Shown here: positions 33,003-46,964 of the stretch, piece after piece
How positions within the stretch are numbered: position 1 is the stretch's first letter
Layout of the letters: each line of letters starts with the position of its first letter
NCBI RefSeq assembly: GCF_007997305.1
Contig: NZ_VORZ01000001.1
Location: 1,240,001-1,304,000, forward strand
Length of the DNA stretch: 64,000 nucleotides
Direction: 5' to 3'
From: Psychrobacter frigidicola
GTDB taxonomy: Bacteria > Pseudomonadota > Gammaproteobacteria > Pseudomonadales > Moraxellaceae
The notes under the pieces: generated by a model
Databases searched by the model: none
Seen by the model: the letters and a program-made list of their open reading frames with translations, nothing else
Told to the model about the DNA's origin: nothing
Program-made: the position numbers and the translations under genes

Positions 33003-33578
33003 ATGGCTTTATCACTTAATAAAGGCGGTAACTTATCGCTAACTAAAACAGACCCGAACTTAACCAAACTCGTTATTGGTTTAGGCTGGGATGAGCGTGC
33101 CACCTCAGGTGCTGAATTTGATCTTGATGCCAGTATATTTTTACTCAGCACTGCCGGTAAAGTACGCGGCGACCACGACTTTATCTTTTATAACCAGCTT
33201 AAATCAGATAACGGCGCGGTTGAACATACTGGTGATAACCGTACTGGCGAGGGCGACGGTGATGATGAAGCGGTTAAAGTAAACCTCACTCAAGTTCCTG
33301 CTGATGTCGATAAAATTGTTATCACGGTCACTATTCATGATGCCACTGCCCGTAGCCAAAACTTTGGTCAAGTTGCCAACGCTTTTATCCGCGTCGTTAA
33401 TGAAGAAACTGGTGTAGAAGTGGTACGTTTTGACTTAGCAGAAGACTATTCTGTAGAAACAGCGATGGTATTTGGCGAAGTCTATCGTCATAACGGCGAG
33501 TGGAAATTCCGCGCAGTCGGTCAAGGTTATTCAGGCGGCCTGCAAGCAATGTGTCAGCAATATGGTGTGAATATCTAA
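33003..33578 (+). CDS. TerD family protein (first copy)
   Basis: A 191-residue single TerD domain. It has the typical start [13 protein letters not shown], the GLGWDERA motif, FDLDAS (39-44) and the Ca2+-binding acidic loop [12 protein letters not shown] at 78-89, then the late [21 protein letters not shown]. TerD proteins are cytoplasmic, bind calcium and act in the Ter membrane-linked stress complex against tellurite, phage or other envelope stress. It is the first gene of the Ter cluster and is closed by a terminator at 33697. Ribosome-binding site AAGGACA. It is close to the copy at 35263 even at nucleotide level in the acidic loop. Confidence 0.93.
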
Positions 33579-33696
33579 GTTGCGCCTTATGTTTTTATTA
33601 GGTCTAAAAAGTAAAGCTCATCTGGTTGCAAAATAGTCACAATTCGCTATAGCAAAACGATTAATAATGCTTTATGTTTCATTTAAAATTATGCAT

Positions 33697-33726
33697 AAAA
33701 AAGTGGCTAGCAATAGCCGCTTTTTT
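33697..33726 (+). terminator. Terminator after the first terD gene
   Basis: AAAAAAGTGGCTA / TAGCCGCTTTTTT stem with a 4-nt loop. Its position rules out an upstream start for the DUF475 gene. Confidence 0.9.
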
Positions 33727-33783
33727 ATGGTCTATATCTCTAGTAGATCGACTTTAGCTTTACGCAACCAGACAGGATATGTC

Positions 33784-34845
33784 ATGAGACATTTTTATTT
33801 AGACTTCATCTTCACAGCTATCGCTTTAATGGTAGCCGCGTGGTGGGGTTATTCACATAGTGGTATGGGCGGGATGATATCCACGCTGTCTATTACCGCT
33901 ATTTTGGCCGTGATGGAGATTTCGTTATCGTTTGATAACGCGGTGGTCAACGCCTCAGTGCTCAAACACTGGGACGAATTTTGGAAAAAGATTTTCTTAA
34001 CCGTTGGTATTTTGGTTGCGGTATTTGGTATGCGCTTGGTATTCCCCATTGTCATCGTCGCGGTTACCGCAGACCTTGGTATGATGGAAGTAATCAACTT
34101 AGCCTTAAACGATCCCAAAGAATACTCAGCAAGACTCTTGGCGCATCATGCTGAGATTTCAGCCTTTGGTGGTATGTTCTTATTACTCGTGTTCTTAAAC
34201 TTCTTATTTGATGATAAAGAAGTGCATTGGTTTGACTGGTTGGAGAGCCGCTTAGCAAAATTTGGACAAGTGAATGCTATGAGTGTGTTTGTAGCACTCG
34301 CAGTCTTGATGGTGTCATTAACTTGGGTCAATGACGCACAAGACTCTGCAGTGTTAATCGCTGGCGTCTGGGGTATTTTGATTTACTTAGGCGTACAGGT
34401 CGTATCAGGTATGCTTGAAGGCAACATGGAAGAGGATGAAGAAGAAGGCAATAGCTCTGGTGCCTCAGCAGGTAGTGCCATTATGAAAGGCGGTATTATC
34501 GGTTTCTTATATCTTGAAGTTCTCGATGCCTCGTTCAGTTTTGATGGTGTGATTGGCGCGTTTGCTATTACGAATGACGTCATTGTCATTATGCTAGGTC
34601 TAGCCATTGGTGCGATGTTTGTACGTTCTATGACTATCTTCTTAGTGGACAAAGGCACGCTTGATGAGTTCATTTATCTCGAGCACGGCGCTCACTATGC
34701 GATTGGTGCATTAGCAATTATCATGCTGTTATCAATGAAATTCCAAGTCCCAGAGCTGGTTACTGGTCTGGTCGGTATCGCCTTTATTGGTTGGGCATTG
34801 TTAGCGTCAATAAAGCATCGCAAAAACGAAGCCAAACTCACTTAG
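33784..34845 (+). CDS. DUF475 (TerC-like) integral membrane protein
   Basis: About 353 residues from the ATG at 33784, which has an ACAGGATAT ribosome-binding site; in-frame codons upstream run through a terminator. It has about nine membrane helices. The TerC/DUF475 signature is present as EISLSFDNAVVNASV near the start and EVLDASFSFDGVIGAFAIT in the second half. These paired acidic FDN / FDG motifs are the presumed metal-binding residues. TerC-type proteins are the membrane partners of TerD-family proteins and are implicated in metal homeostasis and resistance. The gene sits between two terD copies and ends at a strong terminator (34904). Confidence 0.9.
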   Translation: MRHFYLDFIFTAIALMVAAWWGYSHSGMGGMISTLSITAILAVMEISLSFDNAVVNASVLKHWDEFWKKIFLTVGILVAVFGMRLVFPIVIVAVTADLGMMEVINLALNDPKEYSARLLAHHAEISAFGGMFLLLVFLNFLFDDKEVHWFDWLESRLAKFGQVNAMSVFVALAVLMVSLTWVNDAQDSAVLIAGVWGILIYLGVQVVSGMLEGNMEEDEEEGNSSGASAGSAIMKGGIIGFLYLEVLDASFSFDGVIGAFAITNDVIVIMLGLAIGAMFVRSMTIFLVDKGTLDEFIYLEHGAHYAIGALAIIMLLSMKFQVPELVTGLVGIAFIGWALLASIKHRKNEAKLT

Positions 34846-35262
34846 CAATAAGTTAAAAACTTAGCGTTGCATAGCAGTACCTAAAGTACATTGTTAATAC
34901 TCTCAGGTTATACCAAACATCTTGGTATAACCTGTTTTCATTTCTAAAGACTCACTCACATAGTCTTTAGCCTAAAATGAATTGTATAGCTTTACCTTGT
35001 TTATTAGTGCATAAACTGTTAAAAAACTATCAGCTACACAAGGTTATTATGTTAGTTGGTAAGCGCACAAAATTCGCCTTGCTTAGTCAGTAACTGCTTA
35101 GTATAGTAAAACGTAATGATATACAGGACGTGGCTTAGCATTAGTATAGTATTTTTTAATACCGCTCTGTTTAACATAGCGTTAAGCCATATTATTTTTT
35201 AGCGTAACTTCTATTCTATCAAAAAATAAAATCACTTAATGAATAAACCAAAGGACACTTAC
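34846..35262. other. Intergenic region before the second terD gene
   Basis: 417 bp. Apart from the terminator at 34904-34939 it is AT-rich and should hold the promoter of the second terD gene. No other structure recognised. Confidence 0.4.
34904..34939 (+). terminator. Terminator after the DUF475 gene
   Basis: Perfect 13-bp stem CAGGTTATACCAA / TTGGTATAACCTG, 5-nt loop, then TTTTC. Confidence 0.85.
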
Positions 35263-35838
35263 ATGGCTATTAGCTTAACAAAAGGCGGCAACGTCAACTT
35301 ATCAAAAGAAGCCCCTGGTCTAACTAACATTACTGTTGGTCTTGGCTGGGATCCACGTGCGACTGACGGTCAAGATTTTGACTTAGATGCTATTGGCTTT
35401 TTGGTTGATGAATCTGGTAAAGTCCGTAACGATCAAGACTTTATCTTTTTTAATAACTTAAAGTCAGATAACGGTGCAGTTGAGCATACTGGCGATAACC
35501 GTACAGGCGAAGGCGACGGTGATGATGAAGCCATCAAAGTAAATCTAGCTAACATTCCAGCTGATGTTAGTAAAGTTGCTCTATGTGCCATTATTTATGA
35601 AGGCCAAGCCCGTAACCAAAACTTCGGTCAAGTTGGTGATGCTTATATTCGTGTTGTTAATGATACTGGCGCAGCTGAAATTGCCCGTTATGACCTATCA
35701 GAAGACGGCAGCACTGAAACTGCAATGATTTTTGGCGAGCTATATCGTCATAACAGCGATTGGAAATTCCGCGCGGTTGGTCAAGGCTTTAGTGGCGGTC
35801 TAGGCCCATTAGCCTCATCTTATGGCGTTAATGTTTAA
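35263..35838 (+). CDS. TerD family protein (second copy)
   Basis: 191 residues from the ATG at 35263 ([15 protein letters not shown]) with an AAAGGACA ribosome-binding site; an upstream in-frame ATG at 35239 is less likely. Same length as the first copy and alignable without gaps: [26 protein letters not shown] at 78-89, [21 protein letters not shown]. The intact acidic loop suggests calcium binding. It is closer to the classic TerD/TerE form ([20 protein letters not shown]). It ends at a long hairpin and is followed by the AIM24-like gene. Confidence 0.94.
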
Positions 35839-35908: not shown

Positions 35909-36003
35909 AAAAGTAATTGGCTAGCGAAAACCTATTTTCATATAGATATATAAAAAATACTGTTAAAAATACCTTAAAGCATTGATATAAGGATTTGCAC
36001 TCT

Positions 36004-36756
36004 ATGGCCGCAACATTTAGCTTAATCGGTACGATTGAACCGTTCTTACATTGCAACCTCAAAAAAGGCGATTCGATCTATTGTGAAGCCAATGCGATGG
36101 TGATGATGGAATCTAACCTTGAGCTTAAAGGTAAGTTGCAAGGAGGTCTTGTGCAGTCATTAATGCGGCGCTTTGCTAATGATGAATCCTTATTCCAGCA
36201 ACAAATTGAAGCCGTTAATGGCGAAGGTGATTGCCTTCTTGCGCCCACCCTCGATGGCGATATGCAAATAATCAATGTCGGTGCGCAGCAATATACCTTG
36301 AGTGATGGGGCATTTGTCGCGGCACAAACTGGCGTCGATATTAAAGCCAAAATTCAGCGTAATTTAGGCGGTGCTATCTTCGGTGATACCGGCGGCTTTA
36401 TGGTGATGCAAACCCATGGTCACGGCCAAGTAGTCGTATCAGGCTTTGGCTCCCTGTTTGAGATTGACGTGACGCCAGGTAAAGATGTCATTATTGATAA
36501 CGGTCATGTGGTCTGCTGGGACTCAAATTTGGATTATAAACTGTCCGTCGCTACCAGTAAGAAAAAAGGCTTTATGGGCAACATTATCAACTCCGTCACT
36601 AGTGGCGAAGGTATGGTCTTGAACTTCTCTGGTAATGGCAAAGTTATCATCTGTTCGCGTAACCGTGACAGCTATCAAGGCTGGCTGCAAAGCATCTTAG
36701 GCACCAGCTCTGGCGGACGCGGCGGTAGCAATGGCTTTATGGGTAATATCTTATAG
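36004..36756 (+). CDS. AIM24/TIGR00266 family protein
   Basis: 250 residues from the ATG at 36004 with an AAGGATTTGC ribosome-binding site. The fold is a beta-rich AIM24-like domain: DSIYCEANAMVMMESNLELKGKL, then FGDTGGFMVMQTHGHGQVVVSGFG and VIIDNGHVVCWDSNLDYKL. The family's biochemical role is unknown; members are often found beside TerD genes. The C-terminus is Gly/Ser-rich and carries two short hydrophobic segments, KKGFMGNII and NGFMGNIL. These resemble a KKG-LG-LF loop in the third TerD protein and in the TerA-like protein. The protein is predicted to be cytoplasmic or membrane-associated. Confidence 0.85.
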   Translation: MAATFSLIGTIEPFLHCNLKKGDSIYCEANAMVMMESNLELKGKLQGGLVQSLMRRFANDESLFQQQIEAVNGEGDCLLAPTLDGDMQIINVGAQQYTLSDGAFVAAQTGVDIKAKIQRNLGGAIFGDTGGFMVMQTHGHGQVVVSGFGSLFEIDVTPGKDVIIDNGHVVCWDSNLDYKLSVATSKKKGFMGNIINSVTSGEGMVLNFSGNGKVIICSRNRDSYQGWLQSILGTSSGGRGGSNGFMGNIL

Positions 36757-36888
36757 AGTGCATTTTTAAAGTCTCTCAAAAGCAAAATTTATAACCCTCT
36801 ATTCTTATTTAGCTGTTTTTGTTAAGAATAATTTTATTTATTGAAATTTACTCTCAACTTTTTTAATAACGATTACAAGGATTATTAT

Positions 36889-37497
36889 ATGGCTATCAGT
36901 CTACAAAAAGGACAAAAAATATCCTTAAATAAAGAAGCGGGTGGGACACTAACCCAAGTTAAATTAGGTTTAGGCTGGGACGTGGCTCAAGCCCCACAAG
37001 AGAAAAAAGGCGGCTTCTTAGGTAAGTTATTTGGTGGCGGTAGCGGCGGCGATTCTATTGACTTAGATGCCTCGTGCATTATGTTTGATAGTAATAAAAA
37101 GGCAGTCGATGCCATTTGGTTCAGTCAATTGCAATCAAAAGATGGTAGTATTCTTCATACGGGCGATAACCGTACTGGCGATGGTGATGGTGACGATGAA
37201 GTCATCAATGTTGACCTATCAAAAGTGCCTGCCAATGTGGTCTCACTGGTCTTTACCGTTAATAGCTTTACCGGTCAGACGTTTGAAACTGTAGAAAATG
37301 CATTTTGTCGTATCGTTAATGCCAATAACAATACTGAAGTAGCGCGCTACAACTTATCGTCACAAGGCACGCATACAGCAATGATTATGGCAAAAGTTTA
37401 TCGCCATAATGATGAATGGAAAATGCATGCGATTGGCGAAACTGCCTCTGGTCGTACTTTCCATGACCTGATGCCAGCTATCACTCCGCATGCGTAG
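36889..37497 (+). CDS. TerD family protein, TerZ-like (third copy)
   Basis: 202 residues from the ATG at 36889 (MAISLQKGQKISLNK) with an AAGGATTAT ribosome-binding site; an in-frame ATG at 36841 is not supported. It differs from the other two copies by a Gly-rich insertion, KKGGFLGKLFGGGSGG (about 39-54), between GLGWD and IDLDAS, typical of TerZ-like members. The acidic loop DNRTGDGDGDDE (93-104) is intact. The C-terminus diverges (KMHAIGETASGRTFHDL). It is the last forward gene of the first half of the Ter cluster, followed by a bidirectional terminator. Confidence 0.92.
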   Translation: MAISLQKGQKISLNKEAGGTLTQVKLGLGWDVAQAPQEKKGGFLGKLFGGGSGGDSIDLDASCIMFDSNKKAVDAIWFSQLQSKDGSILHTGDNRTGDGDGDDEVINVDLSKVPANVVSLVFTVNSFTGQTFETVENAFCRIVNANNNTEVARYNLSSQGTHTAMIMAKVYRHNDEWKMHAIGETASGRTFHDLMPAITPHA

Positions 37498-37664: not shown

Positions 37665-38900
37665 CTATTTCCTACCCTTTTTCCAGCTAAAGCCCCAATT
37701 AAAGGCTTTATCCATTTCTTGATGGCCTTTAAAATATTGATTGATACGCTCAACGTTGATACTGCCTTGCTGATTGACCAAACGCGCAATCGCACACATT
37801 GGCATATTGCCAGCGCCTTCTGTCAGATGCGTCTCAATCGGTGGCTGCTCAGGGGCATGGATAGTGACTACCCCATCTGTTTGTGCCCAGTTGGGAGCGC
37901 CTTCGTAGATGAAAGCAAAGATAAATACTTCCTCAATCTGTGCCCACTGCTGACCGTTAATATCGAGCCACTCGCCACCAGAGGTTTGACCCGTTCTATC
38001 ATCAGCACGCAGACAAACATAAGGCGCTGATTGCAAACTACCAAAGCGGTTACCCAAAGCCTGAATGAGAGTTTTTTCACCATTTTTGAGATGAATCATC
38101 GCCCCAACATCCAGATCAATCCCGCTAGCACCATGTTGCTTAAATAAATCCCCCAACAAGCCTTTTTTGGGGGCTTGCTTGTCTATATTCGGACGTTGAT
38201 TCCAGTTAAGATTCACAGATATTTTACCAAAATCATCACGTTTGGTTAAATTTATACTGGACTGATTTTTGGTTAAGGTAATTTTACTTAAATTGACTGA
38301 CGGTTTAGTGGCGTTATTGGTATTAGGAATTGGTGGCGGCGTGCTTACTCTCTGCGTGTTAAGCGGTTTTTGAGCATTAATAGGCTGAGCTTGAGCAGGT
38401 GCTTCATCAGCAATCTCAACCCCGAAATGCTCGGACAATGGCTTAAGACCACCATTAAATCCTTGAGCAATAAAACGAAACTTCCAACTGCCCTGCCGAC
38501 GATAACATTCTGCCAAAATAATTGCTTTCTCAGAACGACCCGTCGCATTGAGCTGACAAGTAAGTACCACTTGGCTGCCTTGTAATACTTGAATATCAAC
38601 ATCACCAATTTGTGCCAATGTTTGAGCACTGGAAAAAGCCAATGCTATTTTGTCGATGTTCGCTGGTTGGGCGGGTAAATTAATATCAAAAAAACCATCG
38701 CTATCATGTCCGCGAAAGCTAACGCTGTTATCATCGCTGCTTTTTTGACCATAGAAAATCATATCGCCGTCACCGCGTACTTTACCATCGGGGGTCAAAC
38801 GGTACGCCGCACAGTCGATAGAGTTTTGACTGAGGATGCGCACGCTAATATTGTCATTGGGCAGTGGCGCATTGGCACCGGCAATTAAGGTTTGGCTCAT
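37665..38900 (-). CDS. TerA-like protein with two TerD-type domains
   Basis: About 411 residues. The first TerD-like domain (about 15-160) contains YRLTPDGKVRGDGDMIFYGQ and SWKFRFIAQGFNGGLKPLSEHFG. A Pro/Asn linker (about 165-205) leads to the second (about 206-400), which has KKGLLGDLFKQHG, IDLDVGAM, DDRTGQTSGGEW and the TerA-type C-terminus FNWGFSWKKGRK. The long GDGDDE calcium motif of single-domain TerD proteins is replaced in both domains, so calcium binding may be weakened or altered. The gene is on the opposite strand to the rest of the cluster and diverges from the ATP-grasp operon. ATG at 38900 has better spacing from AAGGATAC than the ATG at 38903. Confidence 0.88.
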   Translation of the reverse strand: MSQTLIAGANAPLPNDNISVRILSQNSIDCAAYRLTPDGKVRGDGDMIFYGQKSSDDNSVSFRGHDSDGFFDINLPAQPANIDKIALAFSSAQTLAQIGDVDIQVLQGSQVVLTCQLNATGRSEKAIILAECYRRQGSWKFRFIAQGFNGGLKPLSEHFGVEIADEAPAQAQPINAQKPLNTQRVSTPPPIPNTNNATKPSVNLSKITLTKNQSSINLTKRDDFGKISVNLNWNQRPNIDKQAPKKGLLGDLFKQHGASGIDLDVGAMIHLKNGEKTLIQALGNRFGSLQSAPYVCLRADDRTGQTSGGEWLDINGQQWAQIEEVFIFAFIYEGAPNWAQTDGVVTIHAPEQPPIETHLTEGAGNMPMCAIARLVNQQGSINVERINQYFKGHQEMDKAFNWGFSWKKGRK

Positions 38901-39128
38901 CATGTATCCTTAGAATAGTTGTGATTAATTCTTATCACTATTTGGTTATTGTTATTTGCTTATCAGTATTTGATTATTGCTATTTTGCCTCTGGCTTATA
39001 GTAGCATGAATATGCTGGGTTATTAATGAGCGCCTATTTTCAAAACTGGCTATTAAATATAGTAAATAAAGGCTCAACTATTGCACAGCCCTGTTTTGCT
39101 ATCGTCATATGTATATAATGGCGGTGAC
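38901..39128. promoter_or_regulatory. Divergent regulatory region of the Ter cluster
   Basis: The 228-bp gap between the terA-like gene (reverse) and the ATP-grasp operon (forward). It must contain promoters for both. It is AT-rich with repeated TTATTnnT(A/T)TTTG-like stretches around 38940-38985; no clear operator was identified. Confidence 0.4.
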
Positions 39129-40319
39129 ATGAGAAACACTAACCAAAGCGCTGAGAAAACCATGGATAACACTATTGATTGCCGTACTAACGAGACGAAT
39201 AACTATAGTAACGAGACCGACAATAATAATTTACCAACAGCCGTTTGGTTGGCTGAAGGGCAGTCAAGCCAGCGTGATATGCTTGCCAGTTTACAGACGT
39301 TAAAAACTAAAACTGACTTGCCCTTTATAGTTATCGCCTCTCATCGCCAAAGTCGGCCTGAGATTTTTGAATGTGCAGATAAGGTATTTTTTGAGCCTAC
39401 TTCTAACCTTAAGGACAGCAAAGAGGAACTGCTAGCTGAGACAATGCCGCGCTGGCAGTTTGTATTAGAAGAAGCTAAAAAAAATAACGTGAAGGTATTA
39501 CTTACTGGTCGTAACGGTATCGACTACGAGGCGCAGCGTGAGCAGTTTAGCGCTGCCGGTATTCGCCTATTAACAGGCGCAACTAGTGTATCGGCATTAG
39601 AGATGATTGATGATAAGTTTGCCTTTATGCAGCATTGTCAGGCGTATGATATTCCGGTGGCAGACGCGTGGCGTTTTGATAATAGTGACGAGCTGCAGGC
39701 TTTATTGGCTGAGCATGATCACCAGCCATTGTGTGTTAAGCCGGTGACGGGTATCTTTGCGCAGGGGTTTTGGCGTTTGGATACGGGCAAAGCTGATGAT
39801 GAGCAATACGATAGCTTTGAGCATTTATACTTTACCGAAGATAAAAAAATCACCACTGCGCAGTTTATGAGCGCCTATAACCATAGCCAGATGACAAAAG
39901 AGCAGCCGATTCCGATGTTACTAATGCCATATCTAGCAGGGCAAGAATATTCTATCGATGTGGTATGCGAATATGGCGAAGTATTGGCAGCGGTTACCCG
40001 TCATAAAACTGGCAAGATTCAACATATAGGCTACGATGAATCAGTCATAGCGGTAGTTATACCGCTAATTAAAGCGTTCGGCTGTGATGGTATTGTTAGC
40101 GTACAGACTAAGGCTGACGATGATGGTCAGCATCGAGTACTAGAGATTAATAGTCGCCCATCAGGGGGAATTAGCTATACCGCGCATAGTGGTTTGGATT
40201 TGACCCAAGTAGGATTTGCTTATTGGCTGGGCTTAACTGACAAACCCAACTTAGAGAATGTCGCTAAGCAAATTACTCCATGCCAAGTACGGTCAATTAT
40301 GATGAGTGTGAAGCTCTAA
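39129..40319 (+). CDS. ATP-grasp protein of the Ter biosynthetic module
   Basis: About 396 residues (start at 39129; a TTG at 39081 could extend it). After an Asn/Thr-rich disordered head of about 35 residues comes a pre-ATP-grasp Rossmann-like region (AVWLAEGQSSQRDMLASL; PFIVIASHRQSRPEIFECADKVFFEP). The ATP-grasp fold follows (DDKFAFMQHCQAYDIPVADAW, CVKPVTGIFAQGFWRL, LLMPYLAGQEYSIDVVCEYG, VLEINSRPSGGISYT). The EINSRPSGG motif supplies Mg-ATP ligands. ATP-grasp enzymes make carboxylate-amine or similar bonds; in Ter systems this enzyme is predicted to act on a nucleoside-like metabolite. First gene of the seven-gene forward operon, 29 bp before the NYN gene. Confidence 0.85.
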   Translation: MRNTNQSAEKTMDNTIDCRTNETNNYSNETDNNNLPTAVWLAEGQSSQRDMLASLQTLKTKTDLPFIVIASHRQSRPEIFECADKVFFEPTSNLKDSKEELLAETMPRWQFVLEEAKKNNVKVLLTGRNGIDYEAQREQFSAAGIRLLTGATSVSALEMIDDKFAFMQHCQAYDIPVADAWRFDNSDELQALLAEHDHQPLCVKPVTGIFAQGFWRLDTGKADDEQYDSFEHLYFTEDKKITTAQFMSAYNHSQMTKEQPIPMLLMPYLAGQEYSIDVVCEYGEVLAAVTRHKTGKIQHIGYDESVIAVVIPLIKAFGCDGIVSVQTKADDDGQHRVLEINSRPSGGISYTAHSGLDLTQVGFAYWLGLTDKPNLENVAKQITPCQVRSIMMSVKL

Positions 40320-40348: not shown

Positions 40349-41692
40349 ATGTCAGCTAAGCTCAACAACATTGCGGTGCTTATCGATGCCGATAATGCCT
40401 CGGCCAATAGTATTGGCCAAGTGTTACAAGAAATTGGAAAACTGGGTCATATTAGCTGCAAAAAAATCTATGGTGATTGGGGCAATGCCCATATCCAAAG
40501 CTGGCAAGAAGCGCTATTAAAATACGCCATCGACCCTATGCAACATTTTGCCTACGTCAAAGGTAAAAACGCTACCGATATCGGTATGGTCATCGAAGCC
40601 ATGGATTTGCTATATAGCGGCGCTTACGATGGTTTTTGCCTGATTTCCAGTGACAGCGACTTTACCTCACTGGCATTGCGCATCCGTAAAAACCATATCA
40701 AGGTTTTTGGCTTTGGTAAACGTCATACTGTCGGCGCTTTTACGCAGGCTTGTGATCGATTTTTTTATGTAGAAGACTTATTACCTGTGCCAAGTCATTC
40801 TACTATAGCAACACCTTCATTAAATCAGCTTGCAAACAAGGCAGCAAGCGATACCGTAACGCCTTGGACGACCAAGCAACTACAATCGCAAACGCACTTA
40901 ATAAATACTTTAAATAATATTATTAAAGACGACCCTAACGCCCATAATGGTTGGTCAAACTTATCACATCTGGCAGGTCAACTGAGTAAGAATCATGACC
41001 ATATCAAACTCAGTAAATATGGTTATGAGAAATTCTCTACTTTTATTACCGCGCTGCGTCTATACGATATAAGACGGCAGAATAATGGCTTTTGGGCCAA
41101 AATAAAGTCTCAGAACCCACCAACTAGTAATAGAAGAGTCGTTGCAAACAAGCCAGTGATTAAACAAACATTAGCCAATGTAGACTCAACTCTGTTCGCT
41201 GCGACTCCTATTGTTATTAAAATAATAGCAGCGTCCACTATTGATGCGGTTTTGTTTAGGGTAGATGCTAATAAAAAGGTACGTGGCGATGAAGACATGA
41301 TATTTTATGGCCAAACTCACAGTGAAGATGGGACAATAAAATTAGACCAGCAGCTTGATGACAGTGAATCACTGTCCGAATTTAGTTGTGACTTAAGTAA
41401 GCAACCTGCTGCGATTGAGCAACTCACGTTTACCTTGTCTAGTGAGTTACTCGACAGTTTGTCTTTATATCTAGGTCAAATATCTGTTGAGTTAAATATT
41501 ACAGACACACAAAGCAACATCGTATTATTCTCAGGCGAATTTGACTTACAGAATAAGACCAGTAAGAGTTTACTGCTATTTACTTTAACCCGAGCTGGTA
41601 ATCAGTGGCAGTTTGCGCCAAAGCATCAAAGTATAGACGGCAATCTGCGCTACCTTTGCGAAAAATATGGAGTAGAACTAAGCGATGACTGA
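40349..41692 (+). CDS. NYN-domain nuclease fused to OST-HTH and a C-terminal TerD-like domain
   Basis: A 447-residue three-domain protein. Residues 5-145 are a NYN (PIN-like) RNase domain with acidic residues D13 and D15 (LIDADN), D77 (KNATDIGMVIEAM) and D102/D104 (ISSDSDFTSLA). Residues about 172-255 match an OST-HTH/LOTUS RNA-binding domain (IIKDDPNAHNGWSNLSHLAGQL, YGYEKFSTFITAL). Residues about 288-447 are TerD-like (FRVDANKKVRGDEDMIFYGQ, ending IDGNLRYLCEKYGVELSD). They resemble the N-terminal domain of the neighbouring TerA-like protein but lack the GDGDDE calcium loop. A soluble RNase tethered to the Ter complex is the natural inference. It overlaps the next gene by 8 bp. Confidence 0.85.
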   Translation: MSAKLNNIAVLIDADNASANSIGQVLQEIGKLGHISCKKIYGDWGNAHIQSWQEALLKYAIDPMQHFAYVKGKNATDIGMVIEAMDLLYSGAYDGFCLISSDSDFTSLALRIRKNHIKVFGFGKRHTVGAFTQACDRFFYVEDLLPVPSHSTIATPSLNQLANKAASDTVTPWTTKQLQSQTHLINTLNNIIKDDPNAHNGWSNLSHLAGQLSKNHDHIKLSKYGYEKFSTFITALRLYDIRRQNNGFWAKIKSQNPPTSNRRVVANKPVIKQTLANVDSTLFAATPIVIKIIAASTIDAVLFRVDANKKVRGDEDMIFYGQTHSEDGTIKLDQQLDDSESLSEFSCDLSKQPAAIEQLTFTLSSELLDSLSLYLGQISVELNITDTQSNIVLFSGEFDLQNKTSKSLLLFTLTRAGNQWQFAPKHQSIDGNLRYLCEKYGVELSDD

Positions 41693-42992
41693 GACTAACA
41701 ATACAAGCACAACTAATAACATCCATAAACGCATCATCAGCCTACCGCGTGGCGAACTTGCCTTAACGTATCAGATAAATGACAATACTGACAATCAGCC
41801 TTATCAATTAGAAGATTTACTTGGGTTTGCTCAACGTATCAATCCCAAACGCGCCTTTCTGTTTGTCTCCAAAGTTTTAGGACGCCATATTCCCGTTGCG
41901 CCGACTGTCATGCGTAGTGCTTTTACTGATTTAGCAACCTTAGTACCTGATGATTTGCCTGAACCTATCTTAGTGATTGGCATGGCAGAAACCGCAGTTG
42001 GGCTATCCGCTGGCGTCCATCAAGCCCTACAAACACGCTATCCGAATGCTTTATTACTCAACTCTACTCGCCATGCCCAGCACGATGCTGCTAACTATAA
42101 TAATGACAATCACGATGCTAATGAAAGCCATACTAATAACAATGAAGCTTTGCTAACAACTTTTAGTGAAGACCACAGTCATGCCAGCCAGCATTTAATT
42201 TATCAAAGTAGTAATGAGACCACACAAGCGCAATTGGTTGCCAGTAAAACGCTCATTATGGTTGATGATGAAGCCTCAACTGGCAATACTTGTATGAACG
42301 TGGTCACTGCTTTGCGTGACGCTGGATTGTCACATTTAAAGCAAGTCCATCTCACTACTTTGGTTGATTGGTCATTAGGTCAACCGGGTTTAGATGGCAT
42401 GCTGGCTGAGCGCTTACCCGACATTGACTTTCATCGTCATCATTTATTGTCGGGCGCGTGGCAATGGACAGATGCCCCCAATCCTGAGCCGATTACTATG
42501 CCTTCGGTCGATACCACAGCGGCAGGTTCGCAGCCCATTTTACCAACGGGCAGTTGGGGACGCTTTCCGACCCTTGATAGTACCAACGGCCTTAACGATT
42601 ATCTAATGCAATTTCAAACAGTGTTTGCAGTCTTTAATCAGCAAGCTACTTTTGACCACGCTAAACTACCGAAGAAAATATTAGTATTGGGCAGTAATGA
42701 GTTTGTCTGGTTACCTTTTTTATTGGCGGAATGGCTAGAAAGTCAAAATTCAGATACCGCAGCAATCGTTAAGTTTAGCGCCCTCACCCGCTCACCGATT
42801 GCGCTTGGCGGCGCGATTACCACCATGCTCAACTTTAGCGATAATTATGGCCTGGGCATGACTAACTTTGCTTATAATGTCAATCCTGAGGATTGGGACT
42901 TGATAGTTCTTTGCATAGAGACGCCAGCGGCTAGTATTGACGCGATGTGGGCAGCGTTGGATAATGTGTTGGTGGTTGGTGCTGATAACTAA
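41685..42992 (+). CDS. Phosphoribosyltransferase with TRSP domain (PRTase_2-TRSP)
   Basis: A 435-residue protein. The N-terminal phosphoribosyltransferase-like domain (about 10-250) has the PRPP-binding loop TLIMVDDEASTGNT (about 187-200) and a preceding VIGMAETAVGLSAGV loop. The C-terminal TRSP domain (about 285-435) includes the T-R-S-P-I segment ALTRSPIALGGAI that names it. A His/Asn-rich low-complexity insertion occupies about 131-152. In Ter systems this enzyme is predicted to build a ribosylated nucleoside-like metabolite. It starts within the end of the NYN gene (8-bp overlap), indicating translational coupling; 86 bp separate it from the AT-rich membrane gene. Confidence 0.88.
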   Translation: MTETNNTSTTNNIHKRIISLPRGELALTYQINDNTDNQPYQLEDLLGFAQRINPKRAFLFVSKVLGRHIPVAPTVMRSAFTDLATLVPDDLPEPILVIGMAETAVGLSAGVHQALQTRYPNALLLNSTRHAQHDAANYNNDNHDANESHTNNNEALLTTFSEDHSHASQHLIYQSSNETTQAQLVASKTLIMVDDEASTGNTCMNVVTALRDAGLSHLKQVHLTTLVDWSLGQPGLDGMLAERLPDIDFHRHHLLSGAWQWTDAPNPEPITMPSVDTTAAGSQPILPTGSWGRFPTLDSTNGLNDYLMQFQTVFAVFNQQATFDHAKLPKKILVLGSNEFVWLPFLLAEWLESQNSDTAAIVKFSALTRSPIALGGAITTMLNFSDNYGLGMTNFAYNVNPEDWDLIVLCIETPAASIDAMWAALDNVLVVGADN

Positions 42993-43078: not shown

Positions 43079-43765
43079 ATGAAAATACTGGATAAAGAAT
43101 ATTCATACTTTGATATTTTGCATCAAGCACTTACCTTTCCTGAAGCCGTTGAAGTCGTAGTTATTATTTTTATAATAGTAATCCCACTCTCTCTTAAATT
43201 CTTAAGTATGTTACAAACTAGTAGAATTAGTAAAAGTGACAAGCAGTTTGACACTCTAATGAGAATAATTGAAGATGAAAGCTTTACTGAAAAATTAAAG
43301 TCTGCTCCTTTCCTAGTTAAACAACTAACATTCGAAAATTTTTATTCTTTAAGAAACTATCAGACAACAGAGATTGAGTTTCTCTTAGAACAGAGTTGTT
43401 TACCTTTAGATCTAAACCAAATAGACACTCTTAAAAAAGGGAAAGTTTTATTGTTCTGTAATAATAAATATCAATTAAATATGAACTGGCTGCATAGATT
43501 TTGGTCAAAAAAAATTATCTGGAAGGGTATTTTAATTGGATTCATATTTTTATTTATTTCAGTTATAGCATTGTTACTAATTCAAAATTTTGCATCATAT
43601 ACTCTAATATATATTCTAGCGCTGATAGGTTTTGTAACTATTGAATTTAATCTAATATTTAAGCACGAAGCTATAAAAACTTATTCGAAGGAAGAATTCG
43701 CTATCCAATCATTAATAGAAAAAAGTGAATTGTTTGAAAACAATCAAGGTACTAATAACACATGA
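43079..43765 (+). CDS. AT-rich hypothetical membrane protein inside the Ter operon
   Basis: A 228-residue protein I do not recognise. One hydrophobic segment is at about 24-45 (VEVVVIIFIIVIPLSLKFL) and two adjacent ones at about 148-170 and 173-193. Between them lies a soluble Lys/Glu-rich region of about 100 residues (DEKFTEKL-like helices, FLLEQSCLPLDL); a short charged tail follows. Base composition is very different from its neighbours: sample lines 43441-43560 have 27 G+C of 120, against 29 of 60 in the next gene at 44041-44100. This suggests recent acquisition. It has a GAGAGAG ribosome-binding site and its stop overlaps the HAD start (ATGA), so it is integrated into the operon. Confidence 0.75.
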   Translation: MKILDKEYSYFDILHQALTFPEAVEVVVIIFIIVIPLSLKFLSMLQTSRISKSDKQFDTLMRIIEDESFTEKLKSAPFLVKQLTFENFYSLRNYQTTEIEFLLEQSCLPLDLNQIDTLKKGKVLLFCNNKYQLNMNWLHRFWSKKIIWKGILIGFIFLFISVIALLLIQNFASYTLIYILALIGFVTIEFNLIFKHEAIKTYSKEEFAIQSLIEKSELFENNQGTNNT

Positions 43766-44598
43766 CCATCCCATTCTTTCAACCAAACTCAGACATTCTC
43801 AAACCCTACGCACTAATGGATTTAGACGATACCCTATTCCAAACCAAGCGGAAGATAGATGCTTGGGATTTAGCAACTGCTGAAGCTGAAAACTTAGTTT
43901 GCGCCACGGTAAACAAACAGAATGAGCTATTAAGCTTTATGACTCAGCGTCAAGCCGTGTTTTTTAATTGGTTACTAGCCAGTACTGAGCTAATAGCGGT
44001 GACTGCTCGTGATACGACAGAGATTAAGAGGGTTCTATTACCGTTTGACAGTTGGCAGGTATTAACTCACGGCGCCGTAATTATAATGCCCGATGGCAAA
44101 AAACTTAACGACTGGCAGCAGCATATTTATAAGCAGCTTGCGCCATTACAAGATAGGCTAAACCAACTTACTGGATTGATTAATAATTATTATGAAAACT
44201 CTAATAACGATTTAGTATTTACCCCGCATATTGATAGTTTTAATGATGGGTGTAATGCTAAAGTGCTAAATATTTATTTAGCGATTAAACACGCGCAAAA
44301 AGACCATCAAGCCCTAGCCGACTTAGCACAGCAACTACCAACATTAATAGCAGACTTCGATAAGCACTTTTATGTGCATGTGAATGCTAATAATTTAGCT
44401 ATCCTGCCCCATAGCATTCATAAACGCCATGCTGTGCAATTTCTGTTAGATAAATGCTTAGACAAGCAGCGCCCTAGTTTTGGGTTTGGGGACAGTTTGG
44501 CAGACTTACCCTTTCTGCAACTATTGGACTGGTATGGCATGCCCAATCACGGTCAGCTACACTCGACGCTACCAGCGCAACGTCACTCTCAACTATAG
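43762..44598 (+). CDS. HAD family hydrolase of the Ter module
   Basis: A 278-residue haloacid-dehalogenase-fold phosphatase. Motif I is MDLDDTLFQTK with nucleophile D20 and acid/base D22; motif II is AVTARDTTEI; motif IV is FGFGDSLADLPFL near residue 243. A sugar-phosphatase-like cap lies between. In Ter systems the HAD enzyme is predicted to dephosphorylate the nucleoside-like product. The ATG overlaps the stop of the membrane protein gene by four bases and the StiP-like gene starts 2 bp after its stop, so expression is tightly coupled. Confidence 0.87.
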   Translation: MTIPFFQPNSDILKPYALMDLDDTLFQTKRKIDAWDLATAEAENLVCATVNKQNELLSFMTQRQAVFFNWLLASTELIAVTARDTTEIKRVLLPFDSWQVLTHGAVIIMPDGKKLNDWQQHIYKQLAPLQDRLNQLTGLINNYYENSNNDLVFTPHIDSFNDGCNAKVLNIYLAIKHAQKDHQALADLAQQLPTLIADFDKHFYVHVNANNLAILPHSIHKRHAVQFLLDKCLDKQRPSFGFGDSLADLPFLQLLDWYGMPNHGQLHSTLPAQRHSQL

Positions 44599-44600
44599 AC

Positions 44601-45833
44601 ATGGCAATTATAATTAGCGCGAATAACTCTACTATGACGATAAAACCATTTAATAAAACAGCTGTAAATTTAAACAATATTGACTTAGCAAGCTACGGCT
44701 CAGGCAGTTATCTAGCCAGCGATGTCACGGTGCTATTAGATATCGTTGATAAAGACGCGGTGACTGATGTGCCGGTCAGCCAAAAAGAAGCCCTTATTCA
44801 AAGTGGTCAGCGTCATTATTCAGATATGCTTACCTTGGAGCAAGCACCGAGCGCCATGCATGAGCAGCTATATAGGCAAGCGTTGGAACAAGGCACGCAA
44901 CGCAACGCTACTGATGTCGCTAATCTTGCTTATACTTTGCAGCATATTTTTCAGAGCAGCGTCAATAATGATGAGCAACCGTTAATATTGGTGAGCTTAG
45001 TACGCGCAGGCTTGCCCATTGGAGTATTGCTGCAACGGGCTTTAGCGGATAGTGATAGCTCTTATTCTTTGCCAAGTAAGCATTACGGCATGAGCATTAT
45101 TCGTGACCGTGGTTTAGATGCAGTCGCTTTGCAACTTCTGTTAGAGACTTATCCAAACAGCCCAATAGTATTTATTGATGGCTGGACGGGAAAAGGGGCA
45201 ATTTATCAAGAATTAGCAACGAGCCTTGCAGAATTTAATCATCCCGACCACCCAAATTTTACCAATATCTTTCATCAAGGGATGGATGTGATTCCGCTGC
45301 TTACTCTTGCTGATCCAGCAGACGTGGCTTGGCTTGCTGCCAGTGAAGAGGATTGGCTCATTCCTTCAGGATTACTCAATAGTACGGTATCGGGATTGAT
45401 ATCACGAAGCCTATATACCGCGCCGCAATCGGGTCTACATCGCAGTATTTTTTATGATGATTTAATTACGTTTGATCATAGCCTTGCGTTTATCGATTGT
45501 ATTGACATGGCTAGGAAGCAATTGAATACGCCGCCACAGCTGTTACCGACTTTTGAGCAGCCGCGTTATAAGACTAAAGCCATTATCGATATGCTGGCAA
45601 TGCGTTATCAAATTACTAATCGCAACCGTATTAAGCCAACTATTGCTGAAGCAACACGAGCGATATTGCGCCGAGATCCTGAGTGTGTTTTGCTAGCCAC
45701 TTCTGATCATCCAGATACGGCGTTGTTACGTCATTTATGTACCGATAGAGATATTAATGTTGTGGTATTAGGTGCTAAAATACTCCCTTATCAAGCGGTT
45801 ACTCTTATTAAACAGCGCGCCTCCCAAGAATAA
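44601..45833 (+). CDS. StiP / PRTase-like protein with C-terminal PELOTA-type domain
   Basis: A 410-residue protein. Residues about 25-325 match the family now labelled StiP (earlier PRTase_1). It has SYGSGSYLASDVTVLLDI, LILVSLVRAGLPIG (128-141), GMSIIRDRGLDAVAL and the PRPP-loop-like FIDGWTGKGA (191-200). Residues about 345-405 form a PELOTA-like RNA-binding domain (ECVLLATSDHPDTALLRHLC, VVVLGAKILP). The motifs favour a phosphoribosyltransferase-type fold; the cysteine-protease label of the family rests on a characterised relative and may not apply. It starts 2 bp after the HAD stop; Met13 at 44637 is an alternative start. Confidence 0.83.
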   Translation: MAIIISANNSTMTIKPFNKTAVNLNNIDLASYGSGSYLASDVTVLLDIVDKDAVTDVPVSQKEALIQSGQRHYSDMLTLEQAPSAMHEQLYRQALEQGTQRNATDVANLAYTLQHIFQSSVNNDEQPLILVSLVRAGLPIGVLLQRALADSDSSYSLPSKHYGMSIIRDRGLDAVALQLLLETYPNSPIVFIDGWTGKGAIYQELATSLAEFNHPDHPNFTNIFHQGMDVIPLLTLADPADVAWLAASEEDWLIPSGLLNSTVSGLISRSLYTAPQSGLHRSIFYDDLITFDHSLAFIDCIDMARKQLNTPPQLLPTFEQPRYKTKAIIDMLAMRYQITNRNRIKPTIAEATRAILRRDPECVLLATSDHPDTALLRHLCTDRDINVVVLGAKILPYQAVTLIKQRASQE

Positions 45834-45902: not shown

Positions 45903-46964
45903 ATGACACCTATTATGCCAGATAAGCCAGCCAGTCCTTATAGTAATACCCAGTCCTACGTACACCTCATTACTGAGCGTCATGCCATGGTCAAACCGCA
46001 TACTTATCACCCTTATCAGCTGGGCGCAAGTCTCTACATGCCCGCCACACGGCAGGATATTTGGCAAGTGATTAAGCGCGAAAAACTACCGACGATTAAT
46101 AGTATTATTATTTGTCTAGAAGATGCCGTCAGCCACAATGATGTGGCGCTAGCGTTAACGCGATTGCAGGCATTGCTCAATACGTGGGCAACTCATGTCA
46201 ATAGCATCAATGCGCCCTCCAATCCAGCGGCAGAACAAACGCAACAACCGACGCGTCCGCTAGTATTTGTGCGTCCTCGTAATCCAATGATGTTACAACA
46301 ATTGGCAGATTTTGAGCATATCAATCTACTTGACGGCTTTGTCATGCCCAAAGTCGATATGTACAGTTTATCCAATTGGCGTATGGCCTGTCAGAGCCTA
46401 GAGACCGACCAGCTATTGATGCCAACGTTAGAGACCGCTGCTCTATTTAATCCGCATCACAATCAAGAGCTTGCCATCGCTTTTAAAGAAGCCTTTAGTC
46501 AGCCTATGTTTGCGCTCCGTATTGGCGGCAATGATTTATTTGCAGCCCTGCGTCTGCGTCGTCCTAAAGACAGCATTGTCTATGACACCCCTATTGGCAC
46601 ACTCGCTTATCAGCTGCTCGGCTGCTTTGTACCTCACGGCTTTTATTTAACCGCACCAGTCTTTGAATATTTGGATCAGCCGACACTATTGATGCAAGAA
46701 CTGACCCGTGATGTCAGCTTGGGATTAGTTGGTAAAACCGTCATTCATCCAAGCCAAATTGCCTTGGTTCAACAAGCTTACTGCGTCCCTCTGAGTATCC
46801 TTGATGAAGCACAGGCAATATTGCACAGCGAAGCCAAAGCCGTGTTTAAATATAACAATACCATGCTCGAGCCTGCCACTCATCGCTCTTGGGCACAAGA
46901 AGTGGTCAATCGCGCAGCAGTATTTGGCACAATTAATGATGGCAATATGGACTATGCACCGTAA
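45903..46964 (+). CDS. HpcH/HpaI aldolase / citrate lyase beta-like protein
   Basis: A 353-residue TIM-barrel protein of the CitE/HpcH superfamily: LGASLYMPATRQDIW near the start, IIICLEDAVSHNDV with the metal-site acidic pair, VFVRPRNP, DGFVMPKVD, LMPTLETA, RIGGNDLFAALRLRRP and KTVIHPSQIALVQQAYCV. Such enzymes cleave or form C-C bonds of acyl-CoA or keto-acid substrates with a divalent metal. In Ter systems it is predicted to be part of the metabolite pathway. Last gene of the operon, 69 bp after the StiP-like gene, closed by a terminator. ATG at 45915 is an alternative start. Confidence 0.86.
   Translation: MTPIMPDKPASPYSNTQSYVHLITERHAMVKPHTYHPYQLGASLYMPATRQDIWQVIKREKLPTINSIIICLEDAVSHNDVALALTRLQALLNTWATHVNSINAPSNPAAEQTQQPTRPLVFVRPRNPMMLQQLADFEHINLLDGFVMPKVDMYSLSNWRMACQSLETDQLLMPTLETAALFNPHHNQELAIAFKEAFSQPMFALRIGGNDLFAALRLRRPKDSIVYDTPIGTLAYQLLGCFVPHGFYLTAPVFEYLDQPTLLMQELTRDVSLGLVGKTVIHPSQIALVQQAYCVPLSILDEAQAILHSEAKAVFKYNNTMLEPATHRSWAQEVVNRAAVFGTINDGNMDYAP

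Follow-up and report, generated by a model that had tools for sequence, protein, structure and literature searches.

We observe that one gene of the ter operon of Psychrobacter frigidicola joins an NYN putative ribonuclease domain, an OST-HTH domain and a TerD domain in a single protein, and from its place inside the operon RNA cutting may be under the direction of the Ter system. The gene (P0001; 447 aa; 40349..41692, + strand) runs from ATG to TGA, begins AAGGAAGAATAATG, and lies in a window of 64,000 nucleotides, the whole stretch of DNA analysed, to which coordinates refer unless a locus is named. Our best explanation, which we regard as evenly balanced, is that the fusion is a ribonuclease effector recruited by the Ter system. 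The NYN domain would cut single-stranded RNA, the OST-HTH domain would hold it, and the TerA-N-like TerD domain would dock the protein to the Ter complex, whereby RNA cutting would be localised or switched on upon the Ter stress response. An enzyme fused to a TerD-type domain would then occur in at least two versions at a single operon slot, a trypsin-like protease being the second.

Domains and fold of the fusion protein

A first-pass annotation had claimed a NYN/PIN-like RNase with LIDADN, ATDIGM and SSDSDF motifs, an OST-HTH/LOTUS-like middle region and a TerA-like C-terminal region, and had proposed profile searches and structure prediction. All three motifs are present, and the three segments each exceed the curated Pfam cut-off. 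NYN (PF01936) covers residues 7-141 (40367..40771, +; E 7.9e-36, 124.2 bits versus a cut-off of 24.2), the putatively RNA-binding OST-HTH/LOTUS domain (PF12872) residues 181-247 (40889..41089, +; E 1.1e-8, 35.2 bits versus 23.8), and TerD (PF02342), of TerA-N type, residues 297-440 (41237..41668, +; E 5.1e-19, 68.9 bits versus 25.3; profile positions 40-187 of 187). NCBIfam returned a sub-threshold NYN match and nothing else. When the fusion was searched against its own genome, the best non-self match was TerA (E 2.1e-17, 29% over residues 242-447), and no second NYN protein was matched. Fusion residues 310-322, KVRGDEDMIFYGQ (41276-41314), have as their counterpart in the TerA ORF (37665-38903, -) the stretch KVRGDGDMIFYGQ. 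Chance likeness of the fusion domains or of the TerA stretch is excluded because of the E-values obtained.

The AlphaFold2 model of the fusion, built from 25 sequences, has a mean pLDDT of 76.5 and a pTM of 0.43. The three domains lie mostly at pLDDT 60-95, with OST below TerD, and values under 50 occur in the linkers (residues 147-169 and 255-279) and at NYN residues 68-71. In Foldseek searches of the PDB, the NYN part of this predicted model matches the MARF1 NYN domain 5yaa_C (TMt 0.80, E 2.2e-6), and its matches to MARF1 entries 5yaa and 6fdl (TMt 0.75-0.80) point to a PIN-like fold. The TerD part matches 3ibz (TMt 0.72, E 2.6e-11) and 2kxt (TMt 0.70), and the TerD assignment of the C-terminal residues, which the annotation had offered as a test of its claim, is therefore found by profile and by fold.

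A catalytic Asp cluster had also been claimed. The motif aspartates are D13 in LIDADN, D77 in ATDIGM and D102 and D104 in SSDSDF; by sequence these four are the catalytic-type aspartates of NYN. In mouse MARF1, four Asp residues are described as required in the available part of PMC10226599. D13, D15, D43, D77, D102 and D104 are invariant in 18/18 aligned NYN genes of the operon slot described below, a comparison without L044 in which the window gene is included and L036 is added from beyond the sample. The D43 position is Asn in stand-alone NYN-OST relatives. The residues of the claimed cluster are thus present and invariant, and the cluster is assigned from sequence and not from its geometry.

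Canonical TerD carries an acidic GDNxTGxGxGDDE stretch that has a role in calcium binding. This stretch is absent from the fused TerD, where the aligned residues are DQQLDDSESLSE, so direct metal sensing by the fused domain is doubtful, and a better guess is that it docks to a protein or takes another ligand. Lacking the acidic stretch, the domain is classed as TerA-N-like, not as canonical calcium-binding TerD. The TerD part (residues 281-447) carries VRGDEDMIFYGQ.

The ter operon and the slot before PRTase_2

The Ter core and an ATP-grasp gene lie upstream of the fusion. The core comprises TerD (33003..33578, +; Pfam TerD 2.1e-87), a membrane protein that we take to be TerC-like (33667..34845, +; NCBIfam NF010614 of the PRK14013 family at 2.5e-187, above cut-off, and TIGR03716 of the YkoY family at 1.2e-11, below cut-off), a TerD paralogue (35239..35838, +; Pfam TerD 2.6e-84), an AIM24 protein (35995..36756, +; Pfam AIM24 2.2e-54), a further TerD paralogue with the working label TerZ or TerD3 (36841..37497, +; Pfam TerD 1.3e-56), and the TerA-like protein (37665..38903, -; Pfam TerD 5.9e-28), which has two TerD stretches, the N-terminal one being nearest the fused TerD. 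The ATP-grasp gene follows (39081..40319, +; Pfam ATPgrasp_Ter 6.4e-33). Downstream of the fusion are a PRTase_2-TRSP phosphoribosyltransferase (41685..42992, +; Pfam PRTase_2 2.9e-49, TRSP 1.6e-16), an ORF for a 228-aa protein in which hydrophobic stretches are visible by eye (43079..43765, +), a HAD-superfamily phosphatase (43762..44598, +; Pfam Hydrolase_3 8.7e-7), a StiP-PELOTA protein (44601..45833, +; Pfam StiP 2.8e-78, PELOTA_1 2.7e-22) and a CitE-like C-C bond lyase (45903..46964, +; Pfam C-C_Bond_Lyase 7.9e-98). The ATP-grasp, PRTase_2-TRSP, HAD, StiP-PELOTA and lyase genes adjoin the ter genes and constitute the Ter biosynthetic module. The 228-aa protein has no match in Pfam, NCBIfam or PADLOC; a relative is present in L064, L110, L120 and L129, and not every fetched stretch extends that far.

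The ATP-grasp gene and the fusion are separated by 29 nt (taking the first possible start), and the first possible start of PRTase_2 overlaps the 3′ end of the fusion by 8 nt; these genes are therefore very likely co-transcribed and perhaps translationally coupled. Promoter and terminator sites were no commoner than in shuffled sequence and were set aside for that reason. Additionally, PADLOC 2023 returned no family at E<=0.001 for the fusion, TerA, ATP-grasp, PRTase, 228-aa, HAD, StiP or lyase genes of the window. The first-pass ideas that stress sensing could trigger RNA cleavage, and that this could be an anti-phage or dormancy response, are weaker than that annotation suggested.

We sampled 100 genomes of the genus and found PRTase_2 in 93, from which 92 operons were read, the window included; G062 was excluded since its contig begins 1.4 kb before PRTase_2, and the census covers genes of at least 120 aa. 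The ATP-grasp gene is absent from the fetched stretch in 9/92 operons. An NYN gene lies directly before PRTase_2 in 18/92, in every case on the PRTase_2 strand and as the last gene listed before it. Eight of these genes have an intact fused TerD, four a degenerate TerD and five no TerD (L043, L060 and L130-L132), and in the remaining one, L044, which is counted among the 18, the NYN part is concealed by an assembly gap. NYN, OST-HTH and TerD are each above the Pfam cut-off in 8/8 intact genes (G021 scanned as L008). The degenerate TerD domains fall below it (L041 at 21.9 bits, L042 at 24.5, L045 at 16.8) or give no match (the copy in G027). The first possible PRTase start overlaps the fusion stop in 8/8 intact fusions, and this overlap is absent in all five TerD-less forms. 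The first-pass proposal of an RNase physically tethered to Ter is thus strengthened by the operon place, by the single-origin TerA-N-like module and by the protease fusion in the same slot, but it does not hold as a fixed trait: with TerD degenerate or missing in 9/18 slot genes, the tether is dispensable.

Slot genes have one or two OST domains. The window OST is similar to the second OST in L042, L045 and L019, whereas in L012, L013 and L043 it is the first that it resembles; the two OST-HTH kinds stand in opposite order in these two sets, as if the domains had been swapped.

Position in the operon could also point to a pathway enzyme, whose nuclease would free nucleotides or modified bases from RNA to feed the ATP-grasp, PRTase, HAD and StiP-PELOTA enzymes while TerD assembled the pathway. 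The fusion is flanked by the ATP-grasp gene and by the PRTase gene, which it overlaps, and the operon also encodes a PELOTA RNA-binding domain. However, 74/92 PRTase_2 operons do without a fusion-type gene, and a genome of a second genus (G907, discussed below) has the fusion and no PRTase_2 match, and we consider this role quite improbable.

The same slot holds a second kind of enzyme fusion. A fusion of a TerD-like domain with a trypsin-like protease is intact in 56/92 Psychrobacter operons; one copy (L034:8693-9925, +), from P. fozii, which has the NYN fusion as well, gives Trypsin_2 at 7e-22, and the TerD domains of the two scanned Psychrobacter copies fall just below the Pfam cut-off (25.2 bits in L034 and 24.5 in the other, versus 25.3). 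The TerD-protease gene is also found before PRTase_2 in two genomes of another family (L134, L135), and the copy of a third genome in the class (L149:1626-2843, -) matches well in both parts (Trypsin_2 1e-29, TerD 3e-26). In PADLOC, the protease part has a match to the model RT-Protease_XI (9e-18). In the TerD-protease structure model, pLDDT is about 80 for the TerD part and about 27 for the protease part, and only the N-terminus of the model was used because the protease part is poorly modelled. In our reading the slot accommodates effector enzymes tethered to Ter, and the NYN fusion would be the RNase version of these. An obligate protease-RNase pair was rejected: the protease is present in 13/18 operons with an NYN gene versus 43/74 without, which is no excess (Fisher p = 0.30).

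Two Psychrobacter genomes outside the count show further arrangements. One (G944) has both the fusion and the TerD-protease, and in the other (G955, locus L157) an opposite-strand L-PSP-type gene intervenes between an NYN-OST-OST gene and PRTase_2. Unrelated genes also occupy the slot, including DnaJ-like, MHYT, MFS transporter, L-PSP-type, Mrr-type endonuclease and transposase genes (1-3 copies scanned of each). Among them is a 357-aa protein directly before PRTase_2 (L054:6957-8027) whose C-terminal stretch is DnaJ-like at a score slightly short of the Pfam cut-off; 357-aa slot genes also occur in L088, L089, L093, L097, L102, L104 and L125, the scan being of the L054 copy only. In one operon that also carries NYN-OST, the ATP-grasp and TerD-protease genes are separated by an Mrr-type restriction endonuclease gene of opposite orientation (L060:6351-7526, -).

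Constraint, descent and reach of the fusion

Eight full-length fusions (28 pairs, 14-19 unsaturated) give median pairwise dN/dS values of about 0.03 in NYN, 0.17 in OST and 0.11 in TerD, with 1.2 and 0.65 in the linkers. These ratios are rough because synonymous sites are close to saturated (mean pS 0.68-0.69). Non-synonymous divergence in the same fusions is 0.057 for NYN, 0.255 for OST, 0.248 for TerD and 0.563 and 0.465 for the linkers. The NYN and TerD end domains look to be under purifying selection. This bears on the idea that the TerD tail is a decaying, functionless relic of a TerA duplication. Such decay would agree with the degenerate (4/18) and absent (5/18) TerD domains of the slot genes and with disrupted frames in 2/3 genomes of the second genus. 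It fits poorly with the low TerD ratio in the eight intact copies, with retention of VRGDxDMxFYGQ in 9/9 aligned fusions (the 8 intact ones and L036) and with a model in which most of the TerD domain is of high confidence, and we find it distinctly unlikely.

The descent of the fused TerD was followed in two trees. In a 93-domain TerD-family tree, made by a quick method and having several long branches, the fused TerDs form one group (99) beside the Psychrobacter TerA N-terminal domains (93), and 15/17 TerA N-terminal domains group with the protease and fusion domains (98). The nearness of fused TerD to TerA-N is weak in the second tree (74/75), and altogether the case for the TerA N-terminal domain as nearest relative is moderate. 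In this second tree the fused TerDs from Psychrobacter make one clade (100/100) with those from another genus of Moraxellaceae, by which the fused TerD has a single origin common to the two genera.

This second genus (code g472) emerged from a search of 199 Moraxellaceae genomes, which gave three two-piece matches in it; 3/22 of its genomes carry the NYN-TerD gene, and confinement of the fusion to Psychrobacter is thereby ruled out. The survey of the fusion proposed at the outset accordingly places it in two Moraxellaceae genera with one shared TerD origin. The copy in G907 is intact (521 aa), with NYN, two OST-HTH stretches and TerD above the Pfam cut-off, and this genome, 99% complete in 110 contigs, has no PRTase_2 match. 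The other two frames are disrupted (L153:802-2175, -, and L154:637-2112, -): the NYN start is missing from the frame in G865, and two stops interrupt the gene in G928. Both of these genomes have a PRTase_2 match on another contig. In 3/3 genomes the NYN-TerD gene directly follows the TerD-trypsin gene in the ter cluster.

In wider samples, NYN-OST matches were found in 87 further genomes of a 369-genome class sample (E<=1e-20) and in 91 further genomes of a 398-genome phylum sample (E<=1e-40), and in none of them does a match reach into TerD. Long NYN proteins were also rejected as hidden fusions, as 13/13 of these matches with an open frame of at least 400 aa have no TerD match (12 by Pfam, 13 by phmmer). 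We found no NYN-TerD fusion outside the two Moraxellaceae genera in these partial samples, in which a divergent TerD could fall below the thresholds. In nine phylum loci (L168-L172, L174 and L178-L180), NYN(-OST) proteins have long extra N- or C-terminal parts in which Pfam finds no match.

Mobile origins were likewise rejected. None of 2722 matching plasmid records covers 80% of the query in a single place, a fused copy is present in 0/8 phage matches, and 0/67 pattern matches in viral contigs were confirmed, the patterns being two short peptides. Such peptide-pattern scans of genome collections detect close relatives only.

In the NYN tree, the slot NYN genes cluster with moderate support (90/79) apart from eight other NYN proteins; the deepest slot gene, L132, has no TerD, the remainder group at 80/85, and the second genus is outside the tree. 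It is possible, though unlikely, that NYN-OST is an ordinary RNA-decay or processing enzyme, or trims the Ter operon mRNA, and that its TerD tail does no more than hold it close to its transcript or partners, without any role as an effector. NYN-OST without TerD is common in the class and phylum samples, these stand-alone proteins may be such enzymes, TerD-less forms make up 5/18 genes of the slot itself, and the PRTase_2 overlap would suit autoregulation by trimming. Yet the slot genes stand apart in the NYN tree, and the fused TerD is constrained and has survived in two genera.

Weighing the effector reading against known systems

Recruitment of the fusion by Ter as a ribonuclease effector is favoured by the three domains, the fold matches, the invariant aspartates, the constraint, the slot position, the one TerD clade and the protease counterpart. 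Counted against it are the loss or degeneration of TerD in 9/18 slot genes, the presence of the gene in only 18/92 operons, the disrupted frames (2/3) in the second genus, the nil association with the protease, the lack of a PADLOC match, the missing acidic stretch, the PRTase_2 overlap missing from TerD-less forms and the intervening L-PSP-type gene in L157. Minority presence, TerD loss, disrupted frames and the lack of protease association fit an accessory, exchangeable effector, and equally an accessory RNA-processing gene.

Anantharaman, Iyer and Aravind reportedly described a Ter system with a nucleoside-type biosynthetic module in 2012. The window shares with such a system the TerD paralogues and the TerC-like, AIM24, ATP-grasp, PRTase_2-TRSP, HAD, StiP-PELOTA and C-C lyase proteins, but adds the NYN-OST-TerD gene between ATP-grasp and PRTase. 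This gene is not mentioned for Ter systems in the available parts of PMC7824862, PMC7159879 and PMC5822837. The available part of PMC3710099 names NYN and TerD without joining them, and links TerD operons with HEPN proteins instead. Our literature search found no report joining NYN with TerD; the 2012 Ter paper lay beyond its reach and may already picture the fusion. As far as the available parts of these sources go, the mechanism of the Ter proteins remains to be elucidated and terB is reported absent in a Psychrobacter (PMC5822837). A natural nuclease-Ter fusion may thus give a direct handle on this unsettled mechanism, and the protease fusion in the same slot a second, independent one. Should the RNase activity prove genuine and dependent on the Ter operon, Ter output could be read as RNA cleavage.

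The closest functional parallels are the eukaryotic endoribonucleases MARF1 and DNE1, which share with the fusion an NYN domain with catalytic-type aspartates and one or more LOTUS domains, and in the case of MARF1 the NYN fold. In the accessible portions of the sources, the MARF1 NYN domain cuts single-stranded RNA and a pocket mutation abolishes cutting (PMC6294520), RNA binding is reported for the MARF1 LOTUS domain, and DNE1 consists of NYN and two LOTUS domains (PMC10226599), which is the build of most TerD-less slot forms. In contrast to these enzymes, the fusion comes from bacteria, its LOTUS domains number one or two and it ends in a TerD tail, and its partners would be Ter proteins where theirs are decapping factors. 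Stand-alone bacterial NYN-OST proteins share the core (35-43% identity, among the best matches listed outside the genus) but are without TerD.

Other domains are joined to TerD elsewhere too, as fusions with Virul_Fac, FGE-sulfatase, trypsin and vWA domains were seen. The TerD-trypsin-like protease shares a TerD-type domain joined to an enzyme and the same operon slot, but the enzyme is a protease and its TerD is N-terminal. TerF-like (TerD-vWA), TerD-FGE-sulfatase and TerD-Virul_Fac proteins also have TerD fused to another domain, but no nuclease domain was matched in the scanned copies, and by domain content the new part among the TerD fusions scanned is the nuclease-type domain.

Ter operons have been proposed, from comparative genomics, to make a nucleoside-type signal that TerD domains would sense or bind (PMC7824862, PMC7159879, available parts). 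It is conceivable, but rather unlikely, that a nucleoside-like alarm molecule made by ATP-grasp, PRTase, HAD and StiP binds the TerA-N-like domain (or a Ter protein) and switches on the fused protease and/or RNase, and so serves immunity or dormancy by a CBASS-like logic. In CBASS an operon-made nucleotide signal activates an effector, whereas for TerD a nucleotide-type signal is only proposed, in the available parts of the same two sources. If true, this would be an unrecognised signal-and-effector system whose signal and sensor differ from those of CBASS. Its trigger would be stress or phage attack, and its effectors would be interchangeable, with the protease in some strains, the RNase in others and both in some.

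Further TerD-domain genes were seen away from the operon described here. In another family of the class, two genomes carry TerD-Virul_Fac genes (L142:2-3028, -, and L143:220-3567, -) and one carries a TerD-FGE-sulfatase gene (L144:1246-2706, +). The P. frigidicola genome itself encodes, outside the window and far from the ter cluster, a TerD-domain protein (L147:2146-2787, at about 1029645-1030286 of contig C1; E 9.4e-14) whose gene adjoins that of a WYL-domain protein.
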